From: Bacteroidota bacterium | GTDB taxonomy: Bacteria; Bacteroidota; Bacteroidia; Palsa-965 | Direction of reading: 5' to 3' | NCBI GenBank assembly: GCA_013289095.1 | Contig: JABDAO010000020.1 | Span: 1-34,783, forward strand | Length of the DNA stretch: 34,783 nt | In this document: one piece after another, positions 7,216-33,507 of the stretch | Layout of the letters: the number at the start of each line of letters is the position of its first letter | How positions within the stretch are numbered: the stretch's first letter is position 1 | Notes under the pieces: generated by a model | What the model was told of the DNA's origin: nothing | What the model saw: only the letters and a program-made list of their open reading frames with translations | The model's database searches: none | Made by a program: the position numbers and the translations under genes

Positions 7216-8772
7216 TTATCGGATCAATGTCAGAAACCCATTGTACTTATACGCCTTTCCATCCACCCCCGTACCGGTAATGATGTAATAATACGTACCA
7301 TCGACCACAGCAATACCCGATTTGTCGTGTCCATCCCAGCCTTGTATGGGCGAAGTGGCTTCGCTCATTAAAATCCCCCAGCGGTCGTAGATCTTCATGT
7401 CGAACTTGGTGATGCCCTGGGAGATGACCGAGAACACATCATTCTTACCGTCTCCGTTGGGGGTGAATACATTGGGCACTGTCATCGAGGATCCCGGTTC
7501 GCGTACATGTATGATTACGGTATCGGTAACGCTGCAACCGCTGGCGCCGTTTACGGTAAGCACTGCGGTGTAGGTGCCTGCGGTATTGTAAATATGATCG
7601 GGGTTGGGGCCTGTACCGGTTGTGCCGTCGCCGAAGGTCCAGCTCCAGCTCGTAGCCGAGGCAGAACTGGCGCTGGTAAACTGTGCATTAAACGCTGCCA
7701 GACCCGAAGTGCTGTCGGCCGTGGCAGAAGAGCTGACTCCCGAACCGTTGGTTACACTGGTGGTGACGGTTTGTGTATAGGTGCCACAGGCCCCTACGAA
7801 TACAACATTACAGGTATATGTTCCAGGGCCGAGGTTATGAATGGTATCGGTGGTCATACCTCCCGGTGTCCAGGCATAGGTTGGAGCAGGACCCGAATTA
7901 CCGGTAACGGTAGCATAAGCGCTGGCTTTGTTGCCGCAAATGGCGGTCGAAATACCGGTAGCGGTAACCGCAGGCGCCCCACTCTGACACGAAACCGAGT
8001 TGCCTTTGATAAACACGCCGGAGTCGTTATGCCCGTTGGCGGCATCGGCCACTGCAATTTTCATATGGTATGAACTGCAAGGCACCAAGGGTGTTACCGA
8101 AGTGAGCGGAACGGTGTAACCATAGTAATCTATATTGTGTGTATTTGTTCCATCGGGAGGATAATTATCAATATAAAATGACGGGTTTGTAGCCCCTGTT
8201 CCGAGTGGCCAGCCTCCGTTTACGGTGTTGATTTCAACCGGTGTTCCGCTCGGAAGTGTGGCTATATCCTGGGCGGTATAGGCCCCTCCCGCTGGTTTAG
8301 GCCCGGTAATAAATACCCCGAAGGCATCGTTGAACTGGTTGATGTATTTGGGGTACTCATCAGAGCCAAACACAAAGCTCAGTTTCATGCTGTCGCAGAT
8401 GGCAACAAAATCGAATTGGAGGATACAGGCATCGTAGGTGGCCTGGGGGCTGATGGCGGTAAGGTCGGGATCCGTAAAATTGTTTCCGTTGGTGACATTC
8501 AAAAAGAAACTCCCAAAGGTGGCCGAAACCTGTGATGCAATTCCGTTGGTAAGGAGGATTCCATCCGGTATACCCAGGTCGGCACCCGTGTAGGTGAAGG
8601 TACCTGCCGCCTGAGGCCCGCAGTTGAGTGTGGCATTCGAAACCGACACTCCGGCTCCGGCAATTTGCTGGGCCAACACACTGGCTGTACCCGTTTGGGT
8701 GATGCTCAGCTGCGAAAAAACAGGAGCAGCAAAAAAGAGGAGGAGTATAAGCAATGAGAATATCCGTTTCAT
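7216..8772 (-). CDS. Choice-of-anchor L / PKD-domain surface protein with T9SS type B sorting domain
   Basis: The protein begins MKRIFSLLILLLFFAAPVFSQ, a clear signal peptide; a longer frame to 8817 only adds an Ile/Lys-rich extension, so the ATG at 8772 is preferred. Residues about 20-270 resemble the 'choice-of-anchor L' domain (IPDGILLTNG..., FDFVAICDSMKLSFVFGSDEYPKYI, FGVFITGP). A PKD-like fold follows, with WSWTFGDGTTGTGPNPDHIY. The last ~85 residues (VPNVFTPNGDGKNDVF, YDRWGILMSE, GWDGHDKSG, DGTYYYIITG) are the gliding-motility-associated type B C-terminal domain recognised by T9SS. It is therefore likely exported across both membranes and attached to or released from the surface, perhaps as an adhesin. 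A TATCTTTG -7 element lies about 100 bp upstream. Confidence 0.9.
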   Translation of the reverse strand: MKRIFSLLILLLFFAAPVFSQLSITQTGTASVLAQQIAGAGVSVSNATLNCGPQAAGTFTYTGADLGIPDGILLTNGIASQVSATFGSFFLNVTNGNNFTDPDLTAISPQATYDACILQFDFVAICDSMKLSFVFGSDEYPKYINQFNDAFGVFITGPKPAGGAYTAQDIATLPSGTPVEINTVNGGWPLGTGATNPSFYIDNYPPDGTNTHNIDYYGYTVPLTSVTPLVPCSSYHMKIAVADAANGHNDSGVFIKGNSVSCQSGAPAVTATGISTAICGNKASAYATVTGNSGPAPTYAWTPGGMTTDTIHNLGPGTYTCNVVFVGACGTYTQTVTTSVTNGSGVSSSATADSTSGLAAFNAQFTSASSASATSWSWTFGDGTTGTGPNPDHIYNTAGTYTAVLTVNGASGCSVTDTVIIHVREPGSSMTVPNVFTPNGDGKNDVFSVISQGITKFDMKIYDRWGILMSEATSPIQGWDGHDKSGIAVVDGTYYYIITGTGVDGKAYKYNGFLTLIR

Positions 8773-13366: not shown

Positions 13367-13480
13367 ATCGCAATATTTCGATAAATAACCGAGTTCTGCA
13401 AAGTGCGATCTTAATTGGAGTACTCACAAAAGGGAGTGAAGAACAAGGGATCTCATAGCCTTGATTAGTAAACCAGCGGG

Positions 13481-14005
13481 AACGTGCCGGGAACCTTGGG
13501 GAACATGTCGGGAACCTCAGGGAACATGTCGGGAACCTTGGGGAACGTGTCGGGAACCTCAGGGAACATGTCGGGAACCTCAGGGAACATGTCGGGAACC
13601 TTGGGGAACATGTCGGGAAGCTTAGTAAACATGTCGGGAAACTAAGGGAACATGTCGGGAAGCTTAGCAAACATGTCGGGAAGCTTAGTAAACGTGTCGG
13701 GAAGCTTAGTAAACATGTCGGGAAGCTCGGGGAACATGTCGGGAAGCTTAGTAAACATGTCGGGAAACTCGGGGAACATGTCGGGAAGCTTAGTAAACAT
13801 GTCGGGAAACTCGGGGAACATGTCGGGAAGCTTAGTAAACATGTCGGGAAACTTGGGGAACATGTCGGGAAGCTTAGTAAACATGTCGGGAATCTTGGGG
13901 AACATGTCGGGAAGCTTAGTAAACATGTCGGGAATCTTGGGGAACATGTCGGGAAGCTCGGGGAACATGTCGGGAACCTGGGGGAACGTACCGGGAAGCC
14001 TGGGG
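13481..14005. repeat. Minisatellite: 25 tandem units of 21 bp
   Basis: Units start every 21 bp from 13481 to 13985 with no insertion or deletion. Each has the core AACATGTCGGGAA followed by an 8-nt variable tail (commonly GCTTAGTA, ACTCGGGG, CCTCAGGG or CCTTGGGG). Units 1-6 carry mostly CCT-type tails. From 13733 to 13942, GCTTAGTA strictly alternates with a GGGG-type tail, giving a 42-bp higher-order repeat. The first and last units are the most diverged (AACGTGCCGGG, AACGTACCGGG), as usual at array ends. Because 21 is divisible by 3, several long reading frames cross the array on both strands. Substitutions show no synonymous bias and two frames are stopped in unit 7 (13628), so it is most likely non-coding. 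Each unit holds the palindrome ACATGT, and many also AAGCTT. Confidence 0.95.
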
Positions 14006-14144
14006 AACTGTAGATCCTGAGCAAGAGTGCGCATCCGGAGAGCTGAAGAGCAAACACTTATGACAGGTGTAAAACAGCCTTTTCATTCAAAAAAATCAAA
14101 TAAAATGCTTATTTTAACGTTCTGAATTACAGACAACCCGATTC

Positions 14145-18817: not shown

Positions 18818-19000
18818 ATGAAAAAGATAAAACTCAAAGGAAAACTTTTCTTAAACAAGGAAATCCTTTCAAACCTCAACAAAGAAAAGATGGACGAAGT
18901 AAACGGAGGCATCACCATCCTCCGTACCCGGGCTGGTGGAGCGTGTGAGACCAACGACAAAAGTTGTTTTAGAAGATGTGGAAGCTGGTTTAACTGTTGA
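18818..19000 (+). CDS. RiPP precursor peptide with GG leader (class I lanthipeptide-like)
   Basis: The 60-residue peptide has a Lys-rich leader, FLNKEILSNLNKEKMDEVNGG, split here as FLNKEIL and SNLNKEKMDEVNGG. This is the LNKExxxxLNxxEMxxVxGG pattern of Bacteroidota natural-product precursors, with Gly-Gly at 30-31. The core begins ITILRTRAGG. A second Gly-Gly at 40-41 would release the 19-mer ACETNDKSCFRRCGSWFNC, with Cys at 43, 50, 54 and 60 and Ser/Thr at 45, 49 and 56 that could form (methyl)lanthionine bridges; disulfides are the alternative. No LanB, LanC, radical-SAM or peptidase-containing ABC exporter gene is in the window. An S41 peptidase follows 98 bp downstream, after a perfect hairpin. 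The leader match is strong; the modification type is inference. Confidence 0.8.
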   Translation: MKKIKLKGKLFLNKEILSNLNKEKMDEVNGGITILRTRAGGACETNDKSCFRRCGSWFNC

Positions 19001-19032
19001 TCGCCCGTTAACCCGTTGCGTACCCGAAACAG

Positions 19033-19068
19033 GAAATTATCTCCGGGTGCAGGCCCGGAGATAATTTC
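19033..19068 (+). promoter_or_regulatory. Perfect 15-bp hairpin between precursor and peptidase genes
   Basis: GAAATTATCTCCGGG (19033-19047) and CCCGGAGATAATTTC (19054-19068) are exact inverted copies around a 6-nt loop. No T-run follows, so it is not a classical terminator. Its place between the precursor stop (19000) and the peptidase ATG (19099) suits an mRNA-stabilising or attenuating element that keeps precursor transcript above peptidase transcript. Confidence 0.75.
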
Positions 19069-19098
19069 GAGTACTGATTGCAACTGACCCGTTGTCTT

Positions 19099-20814
19099 AT
19101 GAGAAAAACAAATTATTTCCTGCTTGGAATATTCCTGCTCGTGTTGAATGGCCCATTAAAATGTGAACAGGCCGCCCTGTTGAATCAAAAACTCTCAGAC
19201 CTGTGCAAGGCCTGGGGGATCCTCAAATACCATCATCCCGGTATTGCATCCGGGAAAACAGATTGGGACAGTTGTCTGGTTTCTGAAATTACCCAATTAC
19301 TCACCGACTCCGCTTGCCCCCTGCATCCACTTGTCTGCAAACTCCTTGCACTGGCCGACCGCAATTATATTCCCTCTCCTGCTGATACCCTGCCTCTTAC
19401 ACCCGCTGCCGGGCCTATCTTTCGAACCAACTATTTCATCCTCCTGAATGACTCATTCACGAACCGTCTTGAAGCGGTAATCAGGGGCCCGCACCGCCGG
19501 CAGAATTACTACATGGCCCGAAAATCGCAACTTCTTGACTTTTCATTCGAAAAAATATACACCAAAGGGTTTCCATCAGCGGCTTATCGGCTCCTGGGCC
19601 TTTTCCGTTTCTGGAACATTGTTGAATTTTTTGCACCCGATAAAGAGTTAATGGATGCCAACTGGGATCGGACCTTGCTTGACTTCATCCCCCGCTTTCT
19701 GCACGACGACAACCGGGAGGCGTACTTCAAAAGCGTTTCAGCGCTGTTGACAACATTGGATGATGGACATGCCATTGTCATGGACCGCCACCGGTTTGAT
19801 TATCTGGGGAAGTATGAATTTCCGGTGACATTTAAATGGATTGACCAGGAGCTGCTCATAACAGCTGTAGCATCAAAACACCTGGTCAGGAAGTACCAGA
19901 TTGAACCGGGCGACCATGTCCTGACGCTAAACCACCAGACACCCGAACAACAGATCAAACAACTAGGGCCGTTTGCACCGGCTTCGAACCAGAACCGAAA
20001 AATGGTTATCCTCAGTACCTTGCTGGCTGCGTATTCTTCACCCGAACTTACACTTGAACTGGAAAAAAGAAATGGGCAGCGCATCCGTATTATCGAAAAA
20101 CTGAAACCTCAGTCGGCCTGGACAGTTCTTGTTTCAGAATCGAGAGCAAAAAAAGCCTTGAGACAGATCAACCAGACAACTACAAAAACACTGGCACTGC
20201 AAGACATCGGGTATGTCAACCCCTGTTCCTGCAAAAACAAAGCGTTGAAAAAAGCCTATGAAAACGCACGACAGTATCCTGCACTTATTATAGACATGCG
20301 CGGATACCCTGCGGATGATATACTCTTGCTACTGAATCAACTGCTTTGCCGGGAGAAAAAGGTTTTTGTAAAATATCTCGTGGCCGATTCTCTTTTCGCG
20401 GGGCAATTTTGTTCCCAATCAGATTCCTTGTCCCATTTAGATTCCCTGACACCAGCATCACTCAAAGCGCATGCTGTCTCTTATTCAGGCCCTATACTTG
20501 TGCTTGTCAACAGCAGGACACTGAGCGCTTCAGAATGGACTGTCATGGGGCTTCAAACACAACAGCATGTGCTGGTCATGGGCAGCCAGACGGCAGGAGC
20601 CGATGGGAACATTGCCCGTGTTCCTTTGCCTGGTGGATTCAATGCCTGCTTTTCAGGGCTTGGGGTTCTCTACCCCGATGGAGCCAATACGCAAAGAACC
20701 GGTGTCAGGATCGATATCCCGGTTTCGGAAACCCTGCAAGGAGTGCTTTGCGGAAAAGACGAAATCCTGGATGCGGCAGTTCGTTATTTCAAGACAAAAA
20801 CGACAATCAATTGA
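19099..20814 (+). CDS. Exported S41-family (C-terminal processing-like) serine peptidase
   Basis: A hydrophobic N-terminus (NYFLLGIFLLVLNGPLKC) suggests export. An N-terminal helical part (LSDLCKAWGILKYHHPGI, then FRFWNIVEFFAPD) is typical of Bacteroidota S41 proteins. It is followed by a PDZ-like region (KWIDQELLITAVA, IEPGDHVLTLN) and the tail-specific protease core: ALIIDMRGYPADD, GPILVLVNSRTLSASEWTVMG with the Ser of SASEW (about 476-480), and GSQTAGADGNI. S41 enzymes cut unstructured protein C-termini using a Ser-Lys dyad. The ATG at 19099 is preferred over the TTG at 19078 because the signal-like sequence starts there. Coupling to the upstream precursor is suggested only by position: same strand, 98 bp, hairpin between. 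It may mature or degrade the peptide, or be unrelated. Confidence 0.85.
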   Translation: MRKTNYFLLGIFLLVLNGPLKCEQAALLNQKLSDLCKAWGILKYHHPGIASGKTDWDSCLVSEITQLLTDSACPLHPLVCKLLALADRNYIPSPADTLPLTPAAGPIFRTNYFILLNDSFTNRLEAVIRGPHRRQNYYMARKSQLLDFSFEKIYTKGFPSAAYRLLGLFRFWNIVEFFAPDKELMDANWDRTLLDFIPRFLHDDNREAYFKSVSALLTTLDDGHAIVMDRHRFDYLGKYEFPVTFKWIDQELLITAVASKHLVRKYQIEPGDHVLTLNHQTPEQQIKQLGPFAPASNQNRKMVILSTLLAAYSSPELTLELEKRNGQRIRIIEKLKPQSAWTVLVSESRAKKALRQINQTTTKTLALQDIGYVNPCSCKNKALKKAYENARQYPALIIDMRGYPADDILLLLNQLLCREKKVFVKYLVADSLFAGQFCSQSDSLSHLDSLTPASLKAHAVSYSGPILVLVNSRTLSASEWTVMGLQTQQHVLVMGSQTAGADGNIARVPLPGGFNACFSGLGVLYPDGANTQRTGVRIDIPVSETLQGVLCGKDEILDAAVRYFKTKTTIN

Positions 20815-21795: not shown

Positions 21796-22851
21796 ATGGG
21801 CTTAATCTCGAAAAAGAAAACAGTCTTCAAAATAACCCCGGCGCTACGCAAATATTTGAAGACCTACGGACGCGAAGAAAAGATCCCGATAGATTACCTG
21901 GATCTCACCGAATACACGGAACACATCACGTTATACGACCGGAGTAAAAAAGATACCTTGTGGGTAACCGTTGTCTACGACCACAGCCATGCCGATATGC
22001 TGCACGAAGGACTTAAAAAAGTGTATGCCATTCTAAAATCAGCCGGAGATATATCTGTTATCAAACACTTATCTATAGACCGAATCGATCTTTGTCTGTA
22101 TGCCAATACCCAGCCCTTCCGTATTAGGGTGGTAAATATGCTGAACGAAAATCACGATTATTTTTATGTGAAACAGGCCGACAGCTCACGCATCTATGGC
22201 CTGGAGCTGGAACATATCTTGTCGCCCAACCGTATTGCCTATTTCGTAAGCAATGATACGCTTATTGAGGAACACATCATCGGCATCCCTGCCGATCAGT
22301 TTTTGAAAAACAACCTGGTCGACCGGCATTTTGAAGAAACACGTCTTGCCAAGGAATTTGTAAAATTTAACGAACGTTGTTTTGTTCGGCTGCTGGGCGA
22401 TATGCATACGAGTAACTTTGTGATCGATGTGACACCCGATTTTGAGGAAACGCATTATCGCATGCGTGCCATTGATTTCGACCAACAATCATACGAACGA
22501 CGTAAATCGGTTTATCTGCCCCAGTTTTTTAAGGAAAACAAACACTTCGTCGACCTGGTAAAGAAAAACCTGACCCTCGAATCGATCTTCCAATACCAGC
22601 GCGAAGAACGGGCGCTTATCTTCAACCGCATCCGTTCTTCCAGGTATCAGCTTAAAGGATTGCTTGACACGATGGTACTGGATAATCTTTCACCTGCATC
22701 GCATGTAGAGATGCTCCGAAAAGAGCTAAGCGTGCATTACAAATTGGATGCTTTCCTGAAATGCAGGACAATGGGAGAGCTGGTAAAAATGAGTCTGAAG
22801 ACACTGATCCGTAAAAGCAGGTTGCCTGAAAGCTTTACGAAGACGCGTTGA
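21796..22851 (+). CDS. Orphan protein-kinase-fold (phosphotransferase-like) protein
   Basis: I do not recognise a named family. Kinase-fold landmarks appear in order: a possible beta-3 lysine in YFYVKQAD (126), a hinge-like IAYFVSNDTLIEEHI, a catalytic-loop-like RLLGDMHTSNFVID (198-211; compare GDLHPGNxL in aminoglycoside phosphotransferases and ABC1 kinases), and AIDFDQ (225-230) at the metal-binding DFG position. The N-terminal ~100 residues and the C-terminal helical ~110 residues (YQREERALIFNRIRSS...) are unfamiliar. There is no signal peptide or membrane helix. The ATG at 21796 is preferred; the frame opens at 21703 with a hydrophobic stretch that is probably upstream DNA. A near-match -7 (TATCTTTA, 21728-21735) lies upstream. 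Its end overlaps the convergent deacetylase gene by 17 bp. Substrate unknown; a sugar, lipid or peptide kinase is possible. Confidence 0.7.
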   Translation: MGLISKKKTVFKITPALRKYLKTYGREEKIPIDYLDLTEYTEHITLYDRSKKDTLWVTVVYDHSHADMLHEGLKKVYAILKSAGDISVIKHLSIDRIDLCLYANTQPFRIRVVNMLNENHDYFYVKQADSSRIYGLELEHILSPNRIAYFVSNDTLIEEHIIGIPADQFLKNNLVDRHFEETRLAKEFVKFNERCFVRLLGDMHTSNFVIDVTPDFEETHYRMRAIDFDQQSYERRKSVYLPQFFKENKHFVDLVKKNLTLESIFQYQREERALIFNRIRSSRYQLKGLLDTMVLDNLSPASHVEMLRKELSVHYKLDAFLKCRTMGELVKMSLKTLIRKSRLPESFTKTR

Positions 22852-23575
22852 TCAAATCCACTCCTTTTTCTATGGTCACCACACGCAGCTTTCGATCAAA
22901 GCAATACTTAACAATAGACTCGAAATAAGCCGGCTTATACCCCAGCGGCGAACAATCATCCTGCACATCGTGCGTATAAAAGATGAGCCATCCCTTTTGC
23001 CGAATGGTCTTTTCGATGAAAGCAATGGCAGTATCAAGTGTCAGCTCCTGATCCAGCTGCATGGATTTGAGGTTATTCAGATCAACCGGATTGCGGTTGA
23101 TCCCTGTCTTTACGCTCCTTGCACTGCTGAAACGCGAACGAATAAGCATTTTTGAACGGATGGTCTGCTCACCGTATGGATAGGAAAAGTTTGAGAATAA
23201 ATAATCCGGAATAATTTGCCGGAGCTGGTCCTGATTCTCGTCGAGATCTGATCCAATTTCATCTTCCGTTGCCGAATAAAAATGAATGTGGTTGTAGGTG
23301 TGACAACCCAGCTCTCCTCCTTCATCAATAACCTTACGGAGATGCTCCCGATCAAAGTAAGCTATATCGGGCTGATCATCTTTGAACAGGCCAAGTGAGA
23401 TATAGTACGTACCCGCATACCCATATTTCTTAAGTATTTCTCTGGCAGTAACGAATGCAGAGTTGGGTGCGTCATCAAACGAAAAAGAGAACATCGGTTC
23501 ACTGAAGTCTATGTTTCTTTGCTGACGCACCAACCTGCATGCAATAATGCGCCGTAACTTATCAATCCATTTCAT
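22835..23575 (-). CDS. Polysaccharide deacetylase (NodB/CE4-like)
   Basis: The NodB homology motifs are present: SFSFDDAP with Asp-Asp at 34-35, a metal-binding pair in GCHTYNH (His92 and His96), FSYPYG (motif 3), and IFYTHDV near residue 200 (motif 5). CE4 enzymes remove N- or O-acetyl groups from amino sugars using a divalent metal. There is no signal peptide, so deacetylation would occur in the cytoplasm, on a lipid-linked or nucleotide-linked intermediate, unless it is exported differently. It is the last gene of the - strand polysaccharide cluster, 79 bp after the GT2 gene, and its 3' end overlaps the kinase-fold gene by 17 bp. Confidence 0.88.
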   Translation of the reverse strand: MKWIDKLRRIIACRLVRQQRNIDFSEPMFSFSFDDAPNSAFVTAREILKKYGYAGTYYISLGLFKDDQPDIAYFDREHLRKVIDEGGELGCHTYNHIHFYSATEDEIGSDLDENQDQLRQIIPDYLFSNFSYPYGEQTIRSKMLIRSRFSSARSVKTGINRNPVDLNNLKSMQLDQELTLDTAIAFIEKTIRQKGWLIFYTHDVQDDCSPLGYKPAYFESIVKYCFDRKLRVVTIEKGVDLINASS

Positions 23576-23654
23576 GTCAAATGTCAGCTTGTGCGTTTTA
23601 ATTTCTCAATGACGGGTTTATGCCTTGTTCAGGCCATGAACCTGTCAGGATGGG

Positions 23655-24509
23655 TCAGTATAGGCCTATCCGTTTGCTAATTTTAATTTTTTGTTCCTTC
23701 CACAGCTGCCTTGAAACAAACAAGGGAAAAGGCTGGTAACGCAGCACATAGCGGGAAAGACAATATCCATATAACTGTAGTACGGCTCCCAGCAAAAAAG
23801 GCTTACGGAACACATCCCTTGCCACATTACCCAGAAAGAATGGGAGCCAGTATGGAACAGAGCCTTTGTAAAAGCCGGTTACATAGTGGTTCTGAAGTTT
23901 TGATTTGCGGATCCCTTCTGGTTTTAAATGATTGAACCAGATATCAAAGGTCCTGCTTTTCCAACCCAGGGCCCGAGTTGCAATAAATGCCAGGTCATCT
24001 TCTCCCCTGGTCTTGCTTACAAAGAATTTCCCGATATCAAGGAAACAGTCATAACGGATAATCAGACTGGCTCCCCTGCCGCTGGTCCAATCCTTAATTG
24101 TCTCCGGAATCCCATTCTCCACCAGCCTGCCCGAAGCTATGCCCAATGCCGCATCGTTTTTGAACTCACGTGTGATGCTGTCAAAGAAATCACTGCCAAA
24201 GCTTGTATCTGCATCGATCTTTGCAAGTAAATGAACGGCCTCCGACCGCAGGCTATCGGCATGATTCATGATAGCGGCTACTCTTCCACCCGTATTTCGG
24301 AGCTCTGGCCTGAAATCATAAAGCTTGATATAATTAATAAAGGGATGAAGCTGCCTGTATTTTTCTATGATTGCATAGGTATTGTCAGTCGAGTCATCAT
24401 CCATGATCATCCATTCAGCCGGCAGTACGGTCTGGTTGATGACCGACTGAATGGTTTGTTCAATATACAGGCCTTCGTTTTTAGTCGGTGTGATAATGCT
24501 ATAAATCAT
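23655..24509 (-). CDS. Family 2 glycosyltransferase
   Basis: This is a GT-A fold enzyme: YSIITPTKNEGLYIEQTIQS at the N-terminus, MIMDDDSTDNT (Asp37-39) for nucleotide binding, LLAKIDADT (Asp99, Asp101; the DxD metal site), and TRGEDDLAF as the acidic acceptor-side motif. It transfers a sugar from a nucleotide sugar to a growing glycan on the cytoplasmic face. The C-terminal ~60 residues are basic and aromatic, likely membrane-associated. Its start overlaps the end of the preceding GT2 gene by 11 bp, indicating translational coupling. Donor sugar unknown. Confidence 0.9.
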   Translation of the reverse strand: MIYSIITPTKNEGLYIEQTIQSVINQTVLPAEWMIMDDDSTDNTYAIIEKYRQLHPFINYIKLYDFRPELRNTGGRVAAIMNHADSLRSEAVHLLAKIDADTSFGSDFFDSITREFKNDAALGIASGRLVENGIPETIKDWTSGRGASLIIRYDCFLDIGKFFVSKTRGEDDLAFIATRALGWKSRTFDIWFNHLKPEGIRKSKLQNHYVTGFYKGSVPYWLPFFLGNVARDVFRKPFLLGAVLQLYGYCLSRYVLRYQPFPLFVSRQLWKEQKIKISKRIGLY

Positions 24510-25431
24510 GTTTCACATTTTTATATTTAAAAAAATAAGCATAGCAGGTTCCGGCAATAAACTTCAGCAGGTAGAAAGGCAGCAATTTTTTTTTGCCGTG
24601 CAAATAAAAGAACGCCATTTGTTTGGGCAGATAGTTCACAGAATTCCAGGTAAAGAAACTTTTCAGGAATACGGGCAATCGATCCTGGCGAAACGCGGTT
24701 CCTTTGGCCGTTTCCTGCGTACGGTCGAATACGATACAGGAATATGAAATAAAAACGAGGAACCCCTTTTTCCAGGCCCTAAGGGCAAGGTCATCATCAG
24801 AACCATATTGTGGAAAGGAGTGTTCGTTTAGAAAACCAACCTCCAGGATCAGCTTAGCGCTAAAAAAGCTGCCCCGGCCATTTAATGCAAAGCTGGGGTA
24901 TAGACCCAGTGGGGGGATGTTTTCGAGAAGTTCAAAACTTCTGTGGTAATTCATGACCCGATAATAGGTCCAGTCGATCGATTTCACACCCGAAAAGGTA
25001 ACCCGCAGCGGACTGTTATCTGTAACCGAAATGCTCCCAATAATGCTGTCGTCTCCGGCCGAATAAGCCGATTCAATAAGCGCGTTTAAATAATCCGGGT
25101 GTATTTGAGAGTCATCATTGAGCAGCAACAGGTAATCCGGGCAAAACCGGCAAATGGCATATTTCATCCCTTCGTTGATGCATTTGGTCCACCACCAGCC
25201 TCCCGGCCCCCGAAGGGTTATATAGGAAGGAAACTCCCTGGCCAGCATTTCACAGGTATCATCTGTACAGCCGTCTACTACGATCACTGGTATGATATCC
25301 ACGTTATACCTGTTTTCAAGCTTCCCGATCTGCAAAAGCAACTGAAAGAGGTAATCCCTCCTGTTAAAGGTAGGGATGATGATACAAATACTTCCGATGT
25401 GTTTTCCCGTTTTCATTTTTAAACATTCCAT
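24499..25431 (-). CDS. Family 2 glycosyltransferase (rhamnosyltransferase-like)
   Basis: GT-A motifs are ICIIIPTFNRRDYLFQLL, VIVVDGCTDDTCE, GPGGWWWTKCINEGMKYA, LLLLNDDSQIHPDYL (metal site) and YGSDDDLALRAWKKG. The GGWWWTKCxNxG and LNDD pattern is seen in rhamnosyltransferase-like GT2 enzymes of O-antigen clusters. The C-terminal region is hydrophobic and basic (LPFYLLKFIAGTCYAYFF), suggesting membrane attachment. The frame opens with TTG at 25449; the ATG at 25431 is preferred, and a second ATG at 25416 is also possible. It overlaps the next gene by 11 bp. Donor and linkage cannot be inferred. Confidence 0.88.
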   Translation of the reverse strand: MECLKMKTGKHIGSICIIIPTFNRRDYLFQLLLQIGKLENRYNVDIIPVIVVDGCTDDTCEMLAREFPSYITLRGPGGWWWTKCINEGMKYAICRFCPDYLLLLNDDSQIHPDYLNALIESAYSAGDDSIIGSISVTDNSPLRVTFSGVKSIDWTYYRVMNYHRSFELLENIPPLGLYPSFALNGRGSFFSAKLILEVGFLNEHSFPQYGSDDDLALRAWKKGFLVFISYSCIVFDRTQETAKGTAFRQDRLPVFLKSFFTWNSVNYLPKQMAFFYLHGKKKLLPFYLLKFIAGTCYAYFFKYKNVKHDL

Positions 25432-25460
25432 AATAAAAGGCAGCGCCAAGGGCTGTTCAG

Positions 25461-26831
25461 TTAATTTCCAGCATGGGGGTGTGGATAGGGATACGTTTGA
25501 TACTGGGGCTTGGGAACGAAATGAAAATCGCGTTCCTGTTGAAAATATTGGGGTAAATAATTATAGAAGGAGCCACTGGTATCCGTACCTATATAAGGAG
25601 TAAACTGATTGTTCCAGGTAAAAAGATCGCCGTCGCCATGACCATTTACTATACCGGTATCATTTGATCCAAAAGCCAGTCCACTTGCGTAACCTGGTTG
25701 AGTAAAAATCGGGTAAGTCTGAGGGCCGGTAATCACAAAATTTGAAATGCCAACCCCGAAGCGGTATCCTTGGAACTGATTGTCATGTATCAGCGCCTCA
25801 CCTCCGCGCACCATCACTGCGTTTTCGACAAGATTTTTGGAACTCTGGCCCGGGACAATGGGGGTCCCATCCATGAAAGTAGTATTGACAACCGTATTGT
25901 TGTAGATTTCAACCGCCCGGGTGCTGTAATAATTCAAACCCGACTGTTGTCTCGCTTCATGAGCGTCGATGGCCTGGGCAGAATATGCCCCAATGTTATT
26001 GTTGGCAACGGTATTGTACCTGAACACATACAATGCACAACCTCCGGCCGCTACCGAATGCCGGTGAAAATCGAATGTGTTGTTTTCAATAAAAATGAAG
26101 TTTTCAGACCCAAAGCGGGGGTCTGTGATCCATTGTTTATTCGCCCCGAAGATCACGATGCCATACCCCAACCCCAATCCAGTTGGCCCTTTGACATTGT
26201 GCGAAAACATGCAACTCGTGACAAGGCCCCGGGCCACCAGATCATCATGCTGTACACAGATAGCCGCACTTCCAAAAAACTGGAAGAGGCACCTCCTGAT
26301 CACAAAATCCGTACAGCTGATCATTTTAATGCCTATATCAGGGGCCAGAGACCCTCCATCACCGGTTGTAACACAAGGAGACTTACTCCGAAGGCACAAA
26401 TCAGAAACGAATATGCCACTCGGCTGAGTGCTGTTGATATTGAATTTAAACATGCAATTCAGACTATCAGCCGAAAGCAAGGTGTCACTGAGCGACTCGG
26501 GTCTGAACAAAATAGTGCTTGTCATTCCACTGCCGGAAACAGAAATAAATTTCGTAATAACAATGGTCCTGACTACGCTAAAGACCCCTTCAGGCAGTCT
26601 TATCTCGTCACCATTGTTGGCGGAGTTAATTGCGGCCTGGACGGCGGGCTGAATATCATTCAGCATTCCGGGATTCTGCACATAAATGACATGGTGGGGC
26701 CCCGAATTCATCCCTCGCAGCAAGGCTGTCTGCGCTGGAGAGAGCGGCTCAGGCTTCTCGATATTCCCTTTTTTGCATTCCAAGCACAGCAACAACCCGC
26801 CGGTACAAAAAAACAGTGTTAAATATTTCAT
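25461..26831 (-). CDS. Right-handed beta-helix lipoprotein (pectate-lyase/epimerase-like)
   Basis: The N-terminus MKYLTLFFCTGGLLLCLECKK is a lipoprotein-like signal with Cys at 16 or 19. A Pro-rich linker follows, then DIQPAVQAAINSANNGDEI and RLPEGVFSVVRTIVI, the usual entry to pectin-lyase-fold proteins. Next comes a run of coils with Asn ladders (FIFIENNTFDFHRH, VFRYNTVANNNIG, EIYNNTVVNTTFMDG, LIHDNQFQGYRFG). Such proteins bind, cleave or epimerise polysaccharides. No catalytic triad can be identified by eye, so lyase, C5-epimerase or binding are all open. The ATG at 26831 is preferred over GTG at 26837. It sits inside the polysaccharide cluster with a 157-bp gap upstream, so it probably acts on the exported glycan in the periplasm or at the surface. 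Confidence 0.8.
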   Translation of the reverse strand: MKYLTLFFCTGGLLLCLECKKGNIEKPEPLSPAQTALLRGMNSGPHHVIYVQNPGMLNDIQPAVQAAINSANNGDEIRLPEGVFSVVRTIVITKFISVSGSGMTSTILFRPESLSDTLLSADSLNCMFKFNINSTQPSGIFVSDLCLRSKSPCVTTGDGGSLAPDIGIKMISCTDFVIRRCLFQFFGSAAICVQHDDLVARGLVTSCMFSHNVKGPTGLGLGYGIVIFGANKQWITDPRFGSENFIFIENNTFDFHRHSVAAGGCALYVFRYNTVANNNIGAYSAQAIDAHEARQQSGLNYYSTRAVEIYNNTVVNTTFMDGTPIVPGQSSKNLVENAVMVRGGEALIHDNQFQGYRFGVGISNFVITGPQTYPIFTQPGYASGLAFGSNDTGIVNGHGDGDLFTWNNQFTPYIGTDTSGSFYNYLPQYFQQERDFHFVPKPQYQTYPYPHPHAGN

Positions 26832-26994
26832 GTGCACTAGTTTTTAATGATGAAACTTTTCTATTCTTCAGAGCTCACTTCAAATGATGTTTTCTATTTG
26901 CCCCTCTTTGCGACCAGGTCTACCCCTTTCACTGTCTCGTTCACAAGCCGACGGCTTATACAAATTCACAAGGACCCAGGCGTATTCACATCCC

Positions 26995-28815
26995 TTAGTC
27001 AATGAACTGTCTTGACCATACTTCGAGATTTATCCATTTCCAGATATCCTTTGCGGCATTTGTTTCTCTGTTTATATGGCGCAGGTGTTTCCTTCTGCAT
27101 TCGGCCACATTAAAATACCCCCGTTCATTGAACGATTCGGAGTTCAATAATTCGTTTACATAGTCAATGAATGGTGTTGTCCGTAACCATTCATCGGCCG
27201 GGGTGGCAAAACCAATCTTGTCTTTTCTTGAATAAATAGGAGCCGGCAGGAAACCCTTCATGGCCTCACGCAACAAATATTTGCTCGTGCCGTTTTTGAG
27301 CAGTTGCCCCGATGGCACCGATAATGTTTTCTCAACAAGAATATGATCCAGAAAGGGTATCCGCGATTCAATTGAAAAACGCATAGAATTCATGTCATCC
27401 CATTTTAATAAATGTTCCAACTTGAATTCAAAATGCTTCAGGCAGAAGTCATGTACAGACGAAGGGTTATGGAGGTCGCTTCCAAGCGTTGATAAGGCTG
27501 AGAGCCGGCGATGAAAGTTCTTTGATATACAACTATTTCCCTTTCCTGAACGCCGTTTCATAAATTCGGGGAGAAGGTAGTACCCCAAATACAAAAAGGC
27601 TTCTTTTGATGGGTTGTTCCGGTAACAACCTACAGATTCCCTGGCTGCAGCAAGCAGGCGCCAATTGAACAAGAGTTCCTTGATGTAACATCCATAAAAA
27701 TAATTATACCCTCCCAGCATTTCGTCAGCGCCTTGTCCATCGAGCGTTACGGCCACCTTGCCTTGCGCCAGTTGCATCACCTTATATTGTGCATACGGAC
27801 TGACGCCTGGCATAGGCTCCGAATGAGAAACGATAAAATCTGTGAACTCCGAATAAAACACTTCGGCTGAAGGAGTAACCGCATACATATTCCGGAAGAT
27901 CGGTTTAAAGCAATCAATGAAACGGCTCTCATCTGCTGGATCCGACCTTCCATAGACGGCAGAAAAGGTTTTCAACCCATGCAACTGATACTCCTGACTA
28001 AGTACAGAGGCAATGGAAGAAGAATCAATGCCCCCGCTTAGACAAACTCCCACGGGCACATCACTGCGAAGCCTTAGACCAACAGACCGGGTTAATTCAT
28101 ACCTGAATTCGGGAGGGGTAAGTCTGGTTGGATATTGCAGGGAAGCCTGGAGGTCATACCACTTTCTGCAACTTACGACCCCATTTTCAATACGGATGCA
28201 ATGCCCGTGCTGCAATTTAAAGACCGATTGAAAGAATGTTTCCTCAGATTGATCGGTGCGGTTGAATACAAGGTATTCGAAGATTATTTTCTCATTGGCA
28301 ACATTCTTCCCATTAAGTGGAAGGAGCGCTTTTATTTCGGATGCAAAAACGAAACGGTTTGCATCACATTGATAATAAAATGGTTTTATTCCAAACCGGT
28401 CTCTTGCCCCGAAAAGGATGTTTTGTTCCTGGTTGTAGATAACAAACGCAAAATCGCCATTGAGACGCGAAAGACAGGCCTCCCCCCACTCCAGGTATGC
28501 GGCCAGGAGCACTTCGGTGTCGGTTTTTGTTTTGAACGCATATTTAAACCCGAGTTCCTGTTTGAGTTCAAGATAATTATAGATTTCTCCGTTGAATACA
28601 ATCCAGTGGGTTTCATCATTGCTTTTCATGGGTTGGTGACCTGCTTTTGACAAATCAAGTATACTCAGACGCACATGACCCAGACCCACATTGTTGTGAA
28701 TAAAGATCCCCTCGTCATCAGGACCACGGTGTTTCAGCTCCGTGAGCATAGACCGGATGAGACGGGAGTCCACCGGTTCGCCTGAAAGATTAACAATGCC
28801 TGCTATTCCACACAT
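26995..28815 (-). CDS. asnB: Glutamine-hydrolysing asparagine synthetase-type amidotransferase
   Basis: The N-terminal class II glutaminase domain has the nucleophile Cys2 (MCGIAG), HRGPDDEG (29-36) and FNGEIYNY (74-81), with GARDRFGIKPFYY further on. The C-terminal synthetase domain has the ATP PP-loop LSGGIDSSS (259-267) and GQGADEMLGGYNYFYG. At 606 residues it is full length. AsnB makes asparagine from aspartate, but AsnB-type enzymes within capsule or O-antigen clusters are often thought to amidate uronic acids in the glycan; here the position between a deacetylase-like gene and a beta-helix gene favours that. It starts 4 bp after the end of the preceding gene, so translation is probably coupled. 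Confidence 0.93.
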   Translation of the reverse strand: MCGIAGIVNLSGEPVDSRLIRSMLTELKHRGPDDEGIFIHNNVGLGHVRLSILDLSKAGHQPMKSNDETHWIVFNGEIYNYLELKQELGFKYAFKTKTDTEVLLAAYLEWGEACLSRLNGDFAFVIYNQEQNILFGARDRFGIKPFYYQCDANRFVFASEIKALLPLNGKNVANEKIIFEYLVFNRTDQSEETFFQSVFKLQHGHCIRIENGVVSCRKWYDLQASLQYPTRLTPPEFRYELTRSVGLRLRSDVPVGVCLSGGIDSSSIASVLSQEYQLHGLKTFSAVYGRSDPADESRFIDCFKPIFRNMYAVTPSAEVFYSEFTDFIVSHSEPMPGVSPYAQYKVMQLAQGKVAVTLDGQGADEMLGGYNYFYGCYIKELLFNWRLLAAARESVGCYRNNPSKEAFLYLGYYLLPEFMKRRSGKGNSCISKNFHRRLSALSTLGSDLHNPSSVHDFCLKHFEFKLEHLLKWDDMNSMRFSIESRIPFLDHILVEKTLSVPSGQLLKNGTSKYLLREAMKGFLPAPIYSRKDKIGFATPADEWLRTTPFIDYVNELLNSESFNERGYFNVAECRRKHLRHINRETNAAKDIWKWINLEVWSRQFID

Positions 28816-28819
28816 ACAT

Positions 28820-29590
28820 TCAGGAGTTGATGATGAATTTTTTGACTTGGTTTTTTATATTTTGAAAGATGATCTCCTTGGTCCACGGAATGATCCGGTC
28901 GTCCCAACGCTGAGGGTGAGTCGTGACCATAATTTGATCAGGAAGCTCCTGCATCCGCTCGATAATATCAGCCGTCGAACGGAACTCAAGCGAGTATGAG
29001 GAAGTCACTTTATCGCGTACGCTCATGTTTTCGCCGTTCCATCTGCGCCCGGTGTCGGTGAGATAAAATATTTTATTAAAATCAGTCTCGAAATAGGGCT
29101 CACCGATGATCCCATACTCGGCATATGAATATTCTTCCCAGAGTTTGCGGTTGTCCCAAGGTGTGAGAGGGCTGCCATGCATACAAATTGTCCGCACCGG
29201 ATAAAACGTCCTGAAATATTCGAGGTTTTTCCTGAACGCAAGGATGGCCTCTTCCTTATCGCCCTCTGCTTCTGCGAGGTCTTCGTAATGATACCCGATC
29301 TCATGATCGAGATTCATGATTGCCCTGATCACTTCCGGGTCATTGCTGCTGTTCACAATCCGAAAATAGTATGTCGACCGGATGCCCATTCTATACTCAA
29401 TGGCAGCCATCCGCAATGAATTTTGAGGAAGATCATCAACATCATGACGCAGGATGATCTGTTTTCCTTCGCAGCCTCTAGTTAGATAATCTTCGTAAGT
29501 TAAAAACCCATATCCGTTACGACGGAGTGCATTTAACAAAAGTTCATAAGCCGTAAGTGTGAAGTCCCTCTCAAAGAAATACTTTTTCAT
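28820..29590 (-). CDS. WbmS-like polysaccharide deacetylase-fold protein
   Basis: Residues 45-55 read QIILRHDVDDL, a deacetylase motif-1-like acidic pair. GYHYEDLA supplies a metal-type His, and TICMHGSPLTPWDNRKLW and MVTTHPQRW supply later conserved His. This set resembles the deacetylase-fold WbmS group of O-antigen clusters rather than classical NodB proteins. It has no signal peptide. The reaction is not established; removal of an acyl group from a nucleotide- or lipid-linked sugar is likely. The ATG at 29590 has AGGAAAG just upstream and begins MKKYFF; the longer GTG start at 29608 is less likely. It ends 4 bp before asnB. Confidence 0.75.
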   Translation of the reverse strand: MKKYFFERDFTLTAYELLLNALRRNGYGFLTYEDYLTRGCEGKQIILRHDVDDLPQNSLRMAAIEYRMGIRSTYYFRIVNSSNDPEVIRAIMNLDHEIGYHYEDLAEAEGDKEEAILAFRKNLEYFRTFYPVRTICMHGSPLTPWDNRKLWEEYSYAEYGIIGEPYFETDFNKIFYLTDTGRRWNGENMSVRDKVTSSYSLEFRSTADIIERMQELPDQIMVTTHPQRWDDRIIPWTKEIIFQNIKNQVKKFIINS

Positions 29591-29638
29591 CTTTCCTAGA
29601 TTTAACACGGCAAGTGCTGGCCATGTGTTTCCAATGAT

Positions 29639-30787
29639 TCACACAAAGTCGGAATCAGCATATCCTCCTCTGAACCTGGACTGATACCCTGGGTCGTTTT
29701 GTACATCCTGTTTGCTTGCCGGATAGTTCTCTACGAACCACACCATAAAGCCCGTAACATCAATCAAGGTGCTGACCACATCCGTTGATTTTACCTGAAA
29801 CTCTGATTTATAGCCTGGGTTTTTTGCCAGCGCCACGGCTCTTTCAACAACCCCTTCACTGCCCCTGAATAGTTCAATAAGGCCCAGTCTTACCTCTTCA
29901 TCAAGAGTGCCGGCCCTGGCCGTACTGATGCAGAGGGTAGGTGTTCCGAGGAACGCTGCTTCGGCCGACATGGTCAGGCTCTCGCTCACAAGCAATGCCG
30001 CGTCTGCCATAAATCCGTGCATCTCAGCCGGATGAATTGAATAACCATACGCCTGGAGGTCGGGCGGCAGAGGCGATTCAGAAGAGATCACGATGTCTGC
30101 ATATTTAGATAATTCACGAACCAACGCATATTTTGTTTCCCGAGAAAGACCCGAAAGGCCTATATCATGGCTTGCTTCCCATGAAACAAAACGCAGAATG
30201 ATATACTTCCGTTTCATCGGCCCGCTCAGATCACCCGCAGTACTTCCCTTTTCAATAACAGCAGTGGCCCTGGTTACGTTGGTTGTATCCGGGGCCTGAA
30301 ATCTCCGGGGATGAAGCGAGCAGAGCTCCATAAACCCATTGAACCGTACATGCTTCTTTCCATACGATTTTGTGTATACTCCGGGGGTCAGGATCGTTTC
30401 CGTAAAAGGCACATACATCAGCTGGGCAAAGAAGTTATGATCGGTATCATCAAAAGCCAGGTGGGGCTTCCCGACCAGCCAGGCAGTATGTGCAGCATAA
30501 GGCGACCCGAAGCTCACGAAGAGATCGGGTTTCACTTTCAGCGCTTTGCGAAGCAGGAAGAAATCAGCACTCAGGATATAGACCAGCTTACCCAGCATAC
30601 TCTTCCTCCCCTTTCCACGGTTGCTGTATTCGAGCTTGTAATGGTCAAGCAAGCTTAAGGTCACTTCTTTATCCCTGGCAGTAATAAATACCTCATGTCC
30701 TTTGGTGTGCATAATGCGCACAAAGTGCCGGAAGTAATGTACATGCGCCGGGTGCCCAATGTCTATAAATATTTTCATGCTCTTCAT
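29639..30787 (-). CDS. DUF354 family protein (GT-B/UDP-GlcNAc 2-epimerase-like fold)
   Basis: The N-terminus MKIFIDIGHPAHVHYFRHFV and GHEVFITARDKE are the signature of DUF354 proteins, which share the GT-B Rossmann architecture with UDP-GlcNAc 2-epimerases and MurG-like glycosyltransferases. Further family segments are PDLFVSFGSPYAAHTAWLVG, HLAFDDTDHN, FNGFMELCSLHPRRF and the C-terminal GFMADAALLVSESLTMSAEA, where the last stretch would face a nucleotide-sugar. The length of 382 is normal; an ATG at 30778 would drop three residues. It lies 9 bp after the polymerase gene. The exact reaction (epimerase or glycosyl transfer) is unknown for the family. Confidence 0.85.
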   Translation of the reverse strand: MKSMKIFIDIGHPAHVHYFRHFVRIMHTKGHEVFITARDKEVTLSLLDHYKLEYSNRGKGRKSMLGKLVYILSADFFLLRKALKVKPDLFVSFGSPYAAHTAWLVGKPHLAFDDTDHNFFAQLMYVPFTETILTPGVYTKSYGKKHVRFNGFMELCSLHPRRFQAPDTTNVTRATAVIEKGSTAGDLSGPMKRKYIILRFVSWEASHDIGLSGLSRETKYALVRELSKYADIVISSESPLPPDLQAYGYSIHPAEMHGFMADAALLVSESLTMSAEAAFLGTPTLCISTARAGTLDEEVRLGLIELFRGSEGVVERAVALAKNPGYKSEFQVKSTDVVSTLIDVTGFMVWFVENYPASKQDVQNDPGYQSRFRGGYADSDFV

Positions 30788-30796
30788 TTAATCCGA

Positions 30797-32113
30797 TTAG
30801 TAACCATGACCGCGTTTGGGTGCATTTAATTTTCTATTGTATGAGCCATTTGAACCTGTTTTCAAAATCAAGTACCTGGACGTGGCACTTCCAGCTTTTA
30901 CTGCACCCGCTACCTGGGCAATGGGCATGTAACCGATAAACAACAGGCTGTAAAAGAATGGTTTTAAAAAGATTGATTGACTGAACCCCAACATCAATAC
31001 CACAGCCAGGGCATATGCTGCGAAGTTCACGTTCATTCCGCTTCGGATGCAAAGCGACTTGAGCGATACGTAGTAACGGTAAAAGAAAAATAAAAAGAGG
31101 AAGAGCCCATAGGTAGCAAGCAGATCGGTGACACTGTTGTTCCGGTGTTGATCTTCGGAAAAGAAGGAGAATGTTTTTCCACCAAACCGCATCACGCCCC
31201 GCCCCCATCCGATCAAGGGGCTTTTTGCAAAATCGCTTAAATCGGCAAGAGCGCTTCCAAAGCGGGAGGACGTGGTGGTGCCAGCCATCTGAATATTCTG
31301 CTCAATCTTGGTACTCAGAAAATCGAGGGAGAAATAAAGCCCAAGTACGGCTGGAATAAGGATAATACCCAGCAGCGCTTTTTGAGCTACGTTTTGTCTC
31401 ACAAAATAATAGGCCGCTATCAATACAAAGAATGCCAGATAGCCGGCCGTTGAAAAGGTGGAGATCAAAGCAAGGGTCAGGACAATATTAACTCTCGAAC
31501 CTGCTCTCTGCTCACGTATCAGGTTAAACAGCAGAGCCAAGACCAGAAATACGGCAAACAGGCCAGGCTCCCAAAATGGCCCGGGGTTACGATACTCGGT
31601 GAGCACGCATTCATGAAAACAAAAAAGAATATTCGTAGGCCAAACCGTATAAAACCCTGTCTGCTCGGCGAATGGTGTATCAAACAACGGGCACACTTTG
31701 GCGACAAAGAAATTGAAAAACCCGTGCGAAAGAATGGAAGGGATAAAAAACGAAAAGCTGATGATTGAACACACATAGAGAATGTTCACGAGGTATCCGG
31801 CAAAGCGCTCACGGGTGAGACTTATTACAAAATACCCAAGGAACATCCGGATGAAGGTGCCGGCTATCATAACCGGCTCAAACGGTTTAATAAAAAGAAA
31901 CTGAAGAACCTCAACGACCAGGAAGAAAAGCACCACAGCCATTATCTTGGAATCGAACACAATGCTCCTTTTCAAAAAGATAAAGCACACGAAGAGAAAG
32001 AGCAGCAGAAAATGAAGCTGGGCAACCATAAAGTATGGAAAACCGCTCACCGCAATCAGACCTGTTACCATAAAATAATCGGTGGCCTCCCTCGACCTGA
32101 GAATTTTGAACAT
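30797..32113 (-). CDS. Wzy-like O-antigen/exopolysaccharide polymerase
   Basis: A polytopic membrane protein of 438 residues with about 11-12 hydrophobic helices. A long periplasmic loop carries EYRNPGPFWEPGLFA, the Arg...Glu arrangement typical of the Wzy/WaaL (O-antigen ligase-like) superfamily. A later SPLIGWGRGVMRFGG and DQHRNNSVTDLLATYG match the second conserved region ('G.G.......HN.....l...G'). It would polymerise lipid-linked repeat units in the periplasm. The gene starts 2 bp after the flippase gene and is followed 9 bp later by the DUF354 gene, as expected of a Wzx/Wzy-dependent operon. A ligase role cannot be excluded, but the neighbours favour polymerase. Confidence 0.88.
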   Translation of the reverse strand: MFKILRSREATDYFMVTGLIAVSGFPYFMVAQLHFLLLFLFVCFIFLKRSIVFDSKIMAVVLFFLVVEVLQFLFIKPFEPVMIAGTFIRMFLGYFVISLTRERFAGYLVNILYVCSIISFSFFIPSILSHGFFNFFVAKVCPLFDTPFAEQTGFYTVWPTNILFCFHECVLTEYRNPGPFWEPGLFAVFLVLALLFNLIREQRAGSRVNIVLTLALISTFSTAGYLAFFVLIAAYYFVRQNVAQKALLGIILIPAVLGLYFSLDFLSTKIEQNIQMAGTTTSSRFGSALADLSDFAKSPLIGWGRGVMRFGGKTFSFFSEDQHRNNSVTDLLATYGLFLFLFFFYRYYVSLKSLCIRSGMNVNFAAYALAVVLMLGFSQSIFLKPFFYSLLFIGYMPIAQVAGAVKAGSATSRYLILKTGSNGSYNRKLNAPKRGHGY

Positions 32114-32115
32114 GT

Positions 32116-33459
32116 TCAGTCGCTTTGGGTTGTTTGCCTGTTAAGAATACGTTTCACCTCAAAGGGGGCAACAGCGGCGCCATAGATACTGCAAATGATG
32201 GTGGAAAGAATAATGCCCACAATCCCCATTTTCAATGTCACGGCCAGGTAATAGGCCAGGGGAACAAACAGCAACATGCCCGCGACATTGACTAGTATCT
32301 GCAAACGGATCTGCCCGATACCATTGAGCACCATGATGTACATATTCCCGAAACAAATAATCACCGTATACAACATCATAAAGAGGGAAATCCGAAAATC
32401 GACCACTACCTTGTTCCCAACCCAGAGACGGTACGCTGAATTCGAAAATACAAGCATAATGATGGCCACAACAACCAGGATCAGCCATCCTGCCAACAAT
32501 TGTTTCAACGAATTCCGAATCCATGCAAAATCAAGTTTGACATAGGCCTCTGTAAAAGCCGACCAATAGGGGGCCGTAATGATACTGAACACCATTGTGA
32601 TCATTCCGAAATACCGAAAAGCTATATTATAGGGCGTAACCAGCTCGGGCGAAAAGAAACGGCAGATAAGCAGATTGCTGGTCTGAAAAAAGATCAGGAC
32701 CGTGAGCTGGATGACAAAGAATTTAATCCCCAGACCCAACACTTCTCTCAACAAACCCAGATCAATATCTTTGAGACTCGGGGCAATGTTCCTGAAACTG
32801 TTCCGGAAATAAAACACATTGACTCCTGCCAGGACGATTACCGGAATAATCGAAAAAACAAGTGCAATCAAATACAGCGATTCATGCGTATACCTGATCA
32901 GTACAATGATGGAGAGAAGCACTGCCAGGTTGGAGAGCATACCATAGAGTGAGACCAGGGCCGGTTGCTGGTGGCTCAGAAAAACACTGTTGATGAGTTG
33001 CAAGATGAATTGAACGGAAAACATCGAAAAGAGCAAAAAAGCAACCGCCCGCAAATCCTCGCGTCCGTCATCACGCAATTTCAGGATTGCATTCCAATCA
33101 AGATGGGAATTCAGAAAAACAAACGCGGTAAAAAGCAGACAGCAGATCACTGTTATTGAAAGATAGGCTGAACTTACATAGGCTTTAGCCTTTGTCATTT
33201 CGTTTTTGGCCATGGCTTCGGCGAGCTTGTTTCGCAAACCATGGCCCAATCCGATATCAAAGAAACTGATCCAGCCGAGCATAGAGCTGATCGTGAGCCA
33301 TACCCCATACTTGGTCGGACTGAGGTAGTTAATGATCAGGGGCACCAGCGCCAGGTTGATAAGCACGCTCACAAACTTGACAGCAAAAGAACTCACAATA
33401 TTCTTCTTCATTCTTGCCGACCTGCTCTGGGAGTCTGAAAAATACCTGTCTGAAATCAT
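32116..33459 (-). CDS. Wzx-like oligosaccharide flippase
   Basis: A 447-residue membrane protein with about 12 transmembrane helices, beginning KNIVSSFAVKFVSVLINLALVP and LSPTKYGVWLTISSMLGWIS. FFDIGLGHGLRNKLAEAMAKN follows, the classic N-terminal pattern of the polysaccharide-biosynthesis (MOP) exporter family. It would flip undecaprenyl-linked repeat units to the periplasmic face. It lies 48 bp after the Wzc gene and 2 bp before the polymerase gene. The start ATG at 33459 gives a short cytosolic leader (MISDRYFSDSQSRSARMKK) before the first helix; an inner methionine at MKKNI is also possible. Confidence 0.92.
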   Translation of the reverse strand: MISDRYFSDSQSRSARMKKNIVSSFAVKFVSVLINLALVPLIINYLSPTKYGVWLTISSMLGWISFFDIGLGHGLRNKLAEAMAKNEMTKAKAYVSSAYLSITVICCLLFTAFVFLNSHLDWNAILKLRDDGREDLRAVAFLLFSMFSVQFILQLINSVFLSHQQPALVSLYGMLSNLAVLLSIIVLIRYTHESLYLIALVFSIIPVIVLAGVNVFYFRNSFRNIAPSLKDIDLGLLREVLGLGIKFFVIQLTVLIFFQTSNLLICRFFSPELVTPYNIAFRYFGMITMVFSIITAPYWSAFTEAYVKLDFAWIRNSLKQLLAGWLILVVVAIIMLVFSNSAYRLWVGNKVVVDFRISLFMMLYTVIICFGNMYIMVLNGIGQIRLQILVNVAGMLLFVPLAYYLAVTLKMGIVGIILSTIICSIYGAAVAPFEVKRILNRQTTQSD

Positions 33460-33507
33460 TGTGTGTTGATTAGTTCTACGTCTTGTTTATTTACACTTTC
33501 CTCTGTT

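Follow-up and report, generated by a model that had tools for sequence, protein, structure and literature searches.

The gene pair at positions 18818-20814 is probably one unlinked piece of a class I lanthipeptide system whose genes are dispersed; here a precursor peptide would be modified in trans by enzymes encoded on other contigs and an exported S41 peptidase would most likely protect the producer against the product. The pair sits in the middle of the window, by which we mean the whole 34.8-kb contig analysed here (C20); this contig belongs to a metagenome bin (G000) of 2.95 Mb and 167 contigs, 62% complete and 0.18% contaminated. The molecule itself appears to be of an ordinary kind, a class I lanthipeptide; what looks unusual is the arrangement, i.e. 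dispersed machinery combined with precursor-peptidase modules.

The leader of the precursor (Table 1) matches NF038153 (lant_leader_L1a), an NCBIfam model of class I lanthipeptide leaders in Bacteroidota, with 38.5 bits (E 9e-10; cut-off 22 bits), which bears out the proposal of the earlier note that this 60-residue peptide is a RiPP precursor with a GG-type leader. LxLxKx5L is the motif of Bacteroidota class I LanA leaders, among which there are many with a terminal Gly-Gly and an accompanying C39 protease gene (Walker et al., PMC7268733); read off the sequence, the motif is present here as LFLNKEILSNL and the Gly-Gly as NGG. The four Cys of the core are spaced C-x6-C-x3-C-x5-C, as previously described. 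There is indeed a second Gly-Gly, ten residues further on, and cleavage behind it would give a 19-mer, but a core beginning at that point is disfavoured as the primary product, because the leader family aligns with the first Gly-Gly and because the 19-mer has three Ser/Thr for four Cys. We therefore place the boundary between leader and core at the first Gly-Gly. Counting from it, a conserved Ser/Thr stands upstream of every core Cys, and the product would most likely be a class I lanthipeptide modified in trans. Two other readings of the peptide were considered and dropped: a radical-SAM RiPP (the TIGR04149 leader model gives 13.2 bits, under its cut-off of 25) and a leaderless bacteriocin.

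Table 1. Coordinates of the features discussed (positions without a locus prefix are those of the window)
Feature	Position	Strand	Remarks
Predicted lanA-type precursor gene, class I lanthipeptide (Bacteroidota L1a leader)	18818..19000	+	60 aa; NF038153; G109 orthologue
Leader MKKIKLKGKLFLNKEILSNLNKEKMDEVNGG, LxLxKx5L motif and Gly-Gly	18818..18910	+	NF038153 match, residues 1-31
Predicted core ITILRTRAGGACETNDKSCFRRCGSWFNC	18911..18997	+	29 residues; 4 Cys and 5 Ser/Thr, positions all kept in G109
Perfect 16-bp stem with 4-nt loop, between precursor and S41 gene	19033..19068	+	Fold z-score -4.5, 0/200 shuffles
S41 peptidase gene, predicted to be exported	19099..20814	+	571 aa; PF03572; 48% identical to G109 S41
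Codon of His224, LDDGH motif, putative catalytic His	19768..19770	+	Invariant in 14 aligned S41 homologues
Codon of Ser476, TLSASEW motif, putative nucleophile	20524..20526	+	Invariant in the 14 homologues; corresponds to Ser236 position in NSR TASSAEM (motif comparison by eye, PMC4698656)
Tandem array	13373-14086		21-nt unit, about 34 copies
Capsule/exopolysaccharide locus	22835-34782		
Erythromycin-esterase-like genes directly after lanthipeptide precursors	L022:8937-10052, L026:8225-9355; L090:911-2140, L092:9989-11257, L100:10910-12046		
LytTR-type response regulators and His_kinase sensors adjoining precursors, and solo LytTR protein of G000	L088:10372-12113, L105:9893-10612, L106:6680-9451, L020:2554-2892		

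Pfam scans of 20 other large ORFs of the window revealed no LanB, LanC, radical-SAM protein or ABC peptide exporter, confirming what had been claimed for this neighbourhood. Clustering of lan genes with the precursor, which is usual for the class without defining it, is thus not seen in the 18.8 kb upstream and 14.0 kb downstream of the pair. The ORFs flanking the pair gave nothing relevant in the Pfam scan, the partial ORF at the left edge being judged by eye. There is no synteny with the nearest relative (G001): it is the only close relative with which a flank gene is shared, one for a 382-aa protein (83% identical), and no other neighbour is common to both. The capsule/exopolysaccharide locus on the right of the window comprises genes for a polysaccharide deacetylase, glycosyltransferases, an AsnB-type amidotransferase, a Wzy-like protein, a flippase and a Wzc-like tyrosine kinase. 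ORFs resembling the tandem array on its left, with a period of 7 residues, occur on contigs C31, C10 and C6 of the same genome.

Elsewhere in this genome, the machinery is present. Eight L1a precursors score over the cut-off at six loci (two on C10, two on C2, and one each on C106, C20, C6 and C14). The single LanB found, on C31, is full length (PF04738, E 1e-155; PF14028, E 5e-71) and is followed by a C39-ABC exporter and then an HlyD protein; a search for a hidden precursor beside this LanB found none. LanC, on C14, is also full length (PF05147, E 1e-46), keeps the zinc-ligand motifs WCYG and CHG, and sits with another precursor. A LanB dehydratase and a LanC cyclase are therefore both available to the window precursor in trans. 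Thus, the precursor described earlier as an orphan is one in its neighbourhood and not in its genome, and the genome-wide search for LanB/LanC and C39-ABC genes that had been suggested supports the option of a peptide served in trans. With an L1a leader, and with LanB and LanC as the machinery found, the system does not appear to fall among prochlorosin-type class II systems, which have a LanM synthetase and a Nif11/NHLP-type leader. Tetranucleotide correlations with the window are 0.57-0.76 for the contigs involved and 0.36-0.58 for other genomes, which supports, without proving, that these contigs belong to one organism. Given the completeness of the bin, a nearer or second LanB or LanC may be absent from it, and some misbinning is conceivable.

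What ties these scattered components together is an operon in an uncultured Bacteroidota genome from another family of the class (G109, locus L155, record CAINDA010000045.1). Its gene order is precursor, S41, LanC, LanB, C39-ABC, HlyD. The two precursors are 61% identical (19/29 residues in the core, 18/31 in the leader), with all four Cys and five core Ser/Thr at the same positions, and the S41 proteins align over their full length. For each dispersed component of G000, the best match is the G109 operon: LanB is 60% identical (next best 38%), the C39-ABC exporter 77% (next best 67%), HlyD 62% (next best 34%) and LanC 44% (next best 33%), LanC being less close to its G109 counterpart than LanB and the exporter are to theirs. 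Because this one operon provides the best match throughout, the window peptide is probably a class I lanthipeptide modified in trans, and the simplest reading is that a G109-type operon was broken up in the lineage of G000, its enzymes now acting in trans. The core family appears to be rare: when 84,980 species were scanned for this subtype of S41, G109 alone was returned, and a precursor-profile search covering 396 genomes from the phylum and 36 from the family of G109 gave this core in no genome other than G000 and G109.

The G109 operon also bears on two possibilities raised by the earlier note, a minimal precursor-peptidase system and a disulfide-only peptide, both of which it disfavours since the orthologous precursor, with its five Ser/Thr and four Cys kept, lies inside a complete LanC/LanB/LanT operon. 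A secreted peptide that is unmodified or carries disulfides only, using the C39 exporter while the lanthionine enzymes do not act on it, would suit a contig that holds no modifying gene. It would also suit the two L1a peptides of C2, which have few or no Cys and illustrate that the leader alone is no proof of lanthionines. Nevertheless, we consider it unlikely, as the orthologous core is encoded within a LanC-LanB operon and LanB and LanC of G000 are full length, with the G109 enzymes as their best match. A further genome (G065, 99% complete) has one L1a precursor and no LanB, so that an L1a leader by itself does not guarantee a lanthipeptide. L1a precursors are likewise found, and LanB not, in G003 (59% complete) and G062 (72% complete), where the contig concerned is perhaps missing. 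In G062, 19 L1a precursors on four contigs (L093-L096) are accompanied by two LanC genes and no LanB was found; this is possibly another dispersed system. The C2 peptides of G000 (L024:8115-8321 and 8586-8771) have L1a leaders and cores dominated by His and Gly (HGHGHG...), with zero or two Cys. They would be odd as lanthipeptides, and perhaps bind metal and are exported by the same transporter.

The S41 gene begins 98 nt after the precursor stop on the same strand, with an in-frame TTG at 19078 as an alternative to its ATG, so the order of genes is as first described. The pairing of the two, which had been claimed from position only, is in our view real, because it is kept in G109, because G000 has a second such pair, because S41 genes occur in other lanthipeptide loci and because a further pair lies on contig C82 of G044. 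The second pair of G000 is on C106, and its S41 protein is 26% identical to that of the window (E 2e-57). In total, two of the six S41 genes of G000 adjoin precursors, and the chance that at least two of eight precursors would be followed by an S41 gene is about 1e-4 for an assumed gene number. S41 genes of this family inside or beside lanthipeptide loci were found in G109, G044, G194 (two), G378 and G237. On C82 of G044, 29 nt separate an orphan precursor from a downstream, divergent S41-like gene that keeps the Ser and His motifs (PF03572 score 23.5, just below the Pfam cut-off of 24). No LanB or LanC was seen within the 20 kb read there; this genome is complete, and its LanB genes lie on other contigs.

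A housekeeping peptidase standing next to the precursor by chance would be in keeping with a family that is common in the class, S41 genes of this family being present in 54 of 395 genomes, for the most part away from lan genes and with no precursor. This is very improbable given the pair in G109, the second pair in the same genome and the S41 genes in the lanthipeptide loci of G044, G194, G378 and G237, and the G109 operon alone largely refutes it. As to the precursor occurring without the peptidase in relatives, on which the earlier note would have let the pairing fall, both known members of the core family (2/2) have the S41 gene. A tree built from 41 S41 proteins joins those of the window and G109 as a 100/100 pair, whereas the eight proteins associated with lanthipeptide loci require about six changes, at least four of them forced by well-supported branches. 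These eight are not one clade, and the name S41 does not therefore carry one function; S41 enzymes were apparently recruited to lanthipeptide loci several times.

The window protein itself is placed among the S41 peptidases by its PF03572 domain (E 1.3e-13, Pfam scan) and by its conserved Ser and His (Table 1); Glu479 is likewise invariant in the 14 aligned homologues. A profile search against the PDB gave 37 matches, including solved structures of the Prc, CtpB and CPAF type, with which it shares the peptidase core domain. It differs from C-terminal processing, tail-specific and CPAF-like S41 proteins in that all its NCBIfam matches are far below their cut-offs, and by sequence it appears to belong to a distinct Bacteroidota subgroup. 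A structure predicted from two sequences had a mean pLDDT of 40. The best-studied link between an S41 peptidase and a lanthipeptide is that of the nisin resistance protein NSR, which cuts mature nisin by means of Ser236 (in TASSAEM) and His98 (PMC4828448, PMC4698656). The two are alike in being S41 proteins linked to a lanthipeptide, in having a T-x-S-x-x-E motif with the Ser (TLSASEW and TASSAEM) and in having a conserved His. NSR, however, is a membrane-anchored protein of about 320 aa from Gram-positive non-producers, while the window protein has 571 aa and is encoded with the precursor. We did not file the latter as an NSR because the motifs agree at the T, S and E positions alone and because NSR is absent among the 37 PDB matches.

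Hairpins are found 3' of every precursor of G000 and of the precursor of G109. The one in the window is a probable partial terminator or transcript stabiliser, and the hairpins would fit a partial terminator that favours the precursor transcript over the peptidase transcript. No recognisable Bacteroidota promoter was seen in the 160 nt upstream of the precursor. Together with the isolated position of the pair, halfway along its 34.8-kb contig, and the lack of synteny with G001, this would be expected of a relic, i.e. a pair that outlasted an operon once complete and is no longer expressed, with LanB and LanC serving other precursors. We think such decay improbable, as both ORFs and the hairpin between them are intact, the catalytic residues of the peptidase are kept and conservation of the core is no lower than that of the leader (19/29 and 18/31). 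No 9-nt k-mer is shared upstream by three or more precursors. A GCYACTGCGT box is present within about 80 nt 5' of the ATG of three precursors of G000 (L024:8070, L024:8507, L026:7842), and its longer form, GCYACTGCGTNT, occurs twice in the whole genome, each time before a precursor; shared regulation or a remnant repeat are possible explanations. LytTR-type response regulators and His_kinase sensors adjoin precursors in G109 and, by sequence appearance, in G003 (Table 1), and G000 encodes a solo LytTR protein 5 kb upstream of its LanB. These neighbours may point to peptide-sensing regulation, although Bacteroidota commonly have LytTR systems.

Returning to modification in trans, we propose the following sequence of events. 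Firstly, the 60-aa peptide would be made with its L1a leader. Secondly, LanB (C31) would glutamylate and dehydrate core Ser/Thr and LanC (C14) would close up to four thioether rings, one plausible pattern being T6-C12, T14-C19, S18-C23 and S25-C29. Thirdly, the C39-ABC exporter and HlyD (C31) would cut after the first Gly-Gly and export the product. Finally, the S41 peptidase, itself exported to the envelope, would act specifically on the product of the window peptide. The LanB, LanC and C39 steps are deduced from protein families; modification in trans, rings, export and the localisation and role of the S41 peptidase we infer.

For this last role, we tentatively and slightly favour product-specific self-protection over maturation: the peptidase would most likely guard the producer by cutting peptide that returns to the cell, as NSR does with nisin. 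This preference follows from the NSR precedent, from the C39 domain already handling the leader, and from the S41 gene remaining beside one precursor, its own, whereas several precursors share the modifying enzymes. The S41 peptidase could also trim the product, removing ITILRTRAGG (or a C-terminal piece) after the C39 cut at the first Gly-Gly, which we hold to be possible but less likely. Such trimming would account for the conservation in G109 of the second Gly-Gly and of A-G-G-A-C (FTIINTAAGGAC), and for an S41 gene that directly follows the precursor and remains with it when the operon is split. The 26% identity of the two paired S41 proteins of G000, each with a different precursor, is also as expected of core-specific proteases. 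On the other hand, leader removal is already provided for by the C39 domain of the exporter, an S41 neighbour is missing from most of the L1a precursor loci examined, and trimming to the 19-mer would leave too few Ser/Thr for its Cys, as set out above. S41 peptidases also mostly cut close to C termini, which counts against this role.

The peptidase is not the sole companion of this kind. In G000, the precursors on C10 and C14 are followed by an erythromycin-esterase-like gene, PF05139 being assigned for these two copies; the other copies are homologues, and in G210, G266 and G329 these lie between precursor and LanC. The position immediately behind the precursor seems to be filled by either an S41 or a PF05139 protein.

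In leader motif, Gly-Gly site, the set of LanB, LanC and C39 exporter, and a Cys-rich core whose every Cys has Ser/Thr upstream of it, the system resembles known Bacteroidota class I lanthipeptides (NF038153; PMC7268733; the Chryseobacterium and Runella peptides, PMC9993889). It departs from them in that precursors, LanC and the LanB-exporter genes are on separate contigs and in that an exported S41 peptidase accompanies the precursor. In class II, scattered precursors modified in trans are on record for the prochlorosins and synechococsins, whose precursor genes are spread through the genome and share modifying enzymes (PMC10783134). The arrangement proposed here is similar, but with class I LanB/LanC instead of class II LanM, and with several precursors each followed by its own exported hydrolase. 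In a limited search of open-licence papers, we found no report of scattered, trans-served precursors in class I or of S41 or erythromycin-esterase-like genes that repeatedly accompany the lanthipeptide precursors of Bacteroidota.

We suggest, with some reserve, that the prochlorosin strategy has a counterpart in class I. A single set of LanB, LanC and C39 exporter would serve at least eight scattered precursors, several of them accompanied by an exported hydrolase of their own (S41 in two cases, erythromycin-esterase-like in two) as a product-specific self-protection or finishing enzyme, and new peptides could be gained or lost as two-gene modules. If this is right, peptides of this kind would escape cluster-based genome mining, and their S41 and erythromycin-esterase-like companions would offer a direct and testable way into the question of how lanthipeptides are completed, or survived, by their Gram-negative producers.
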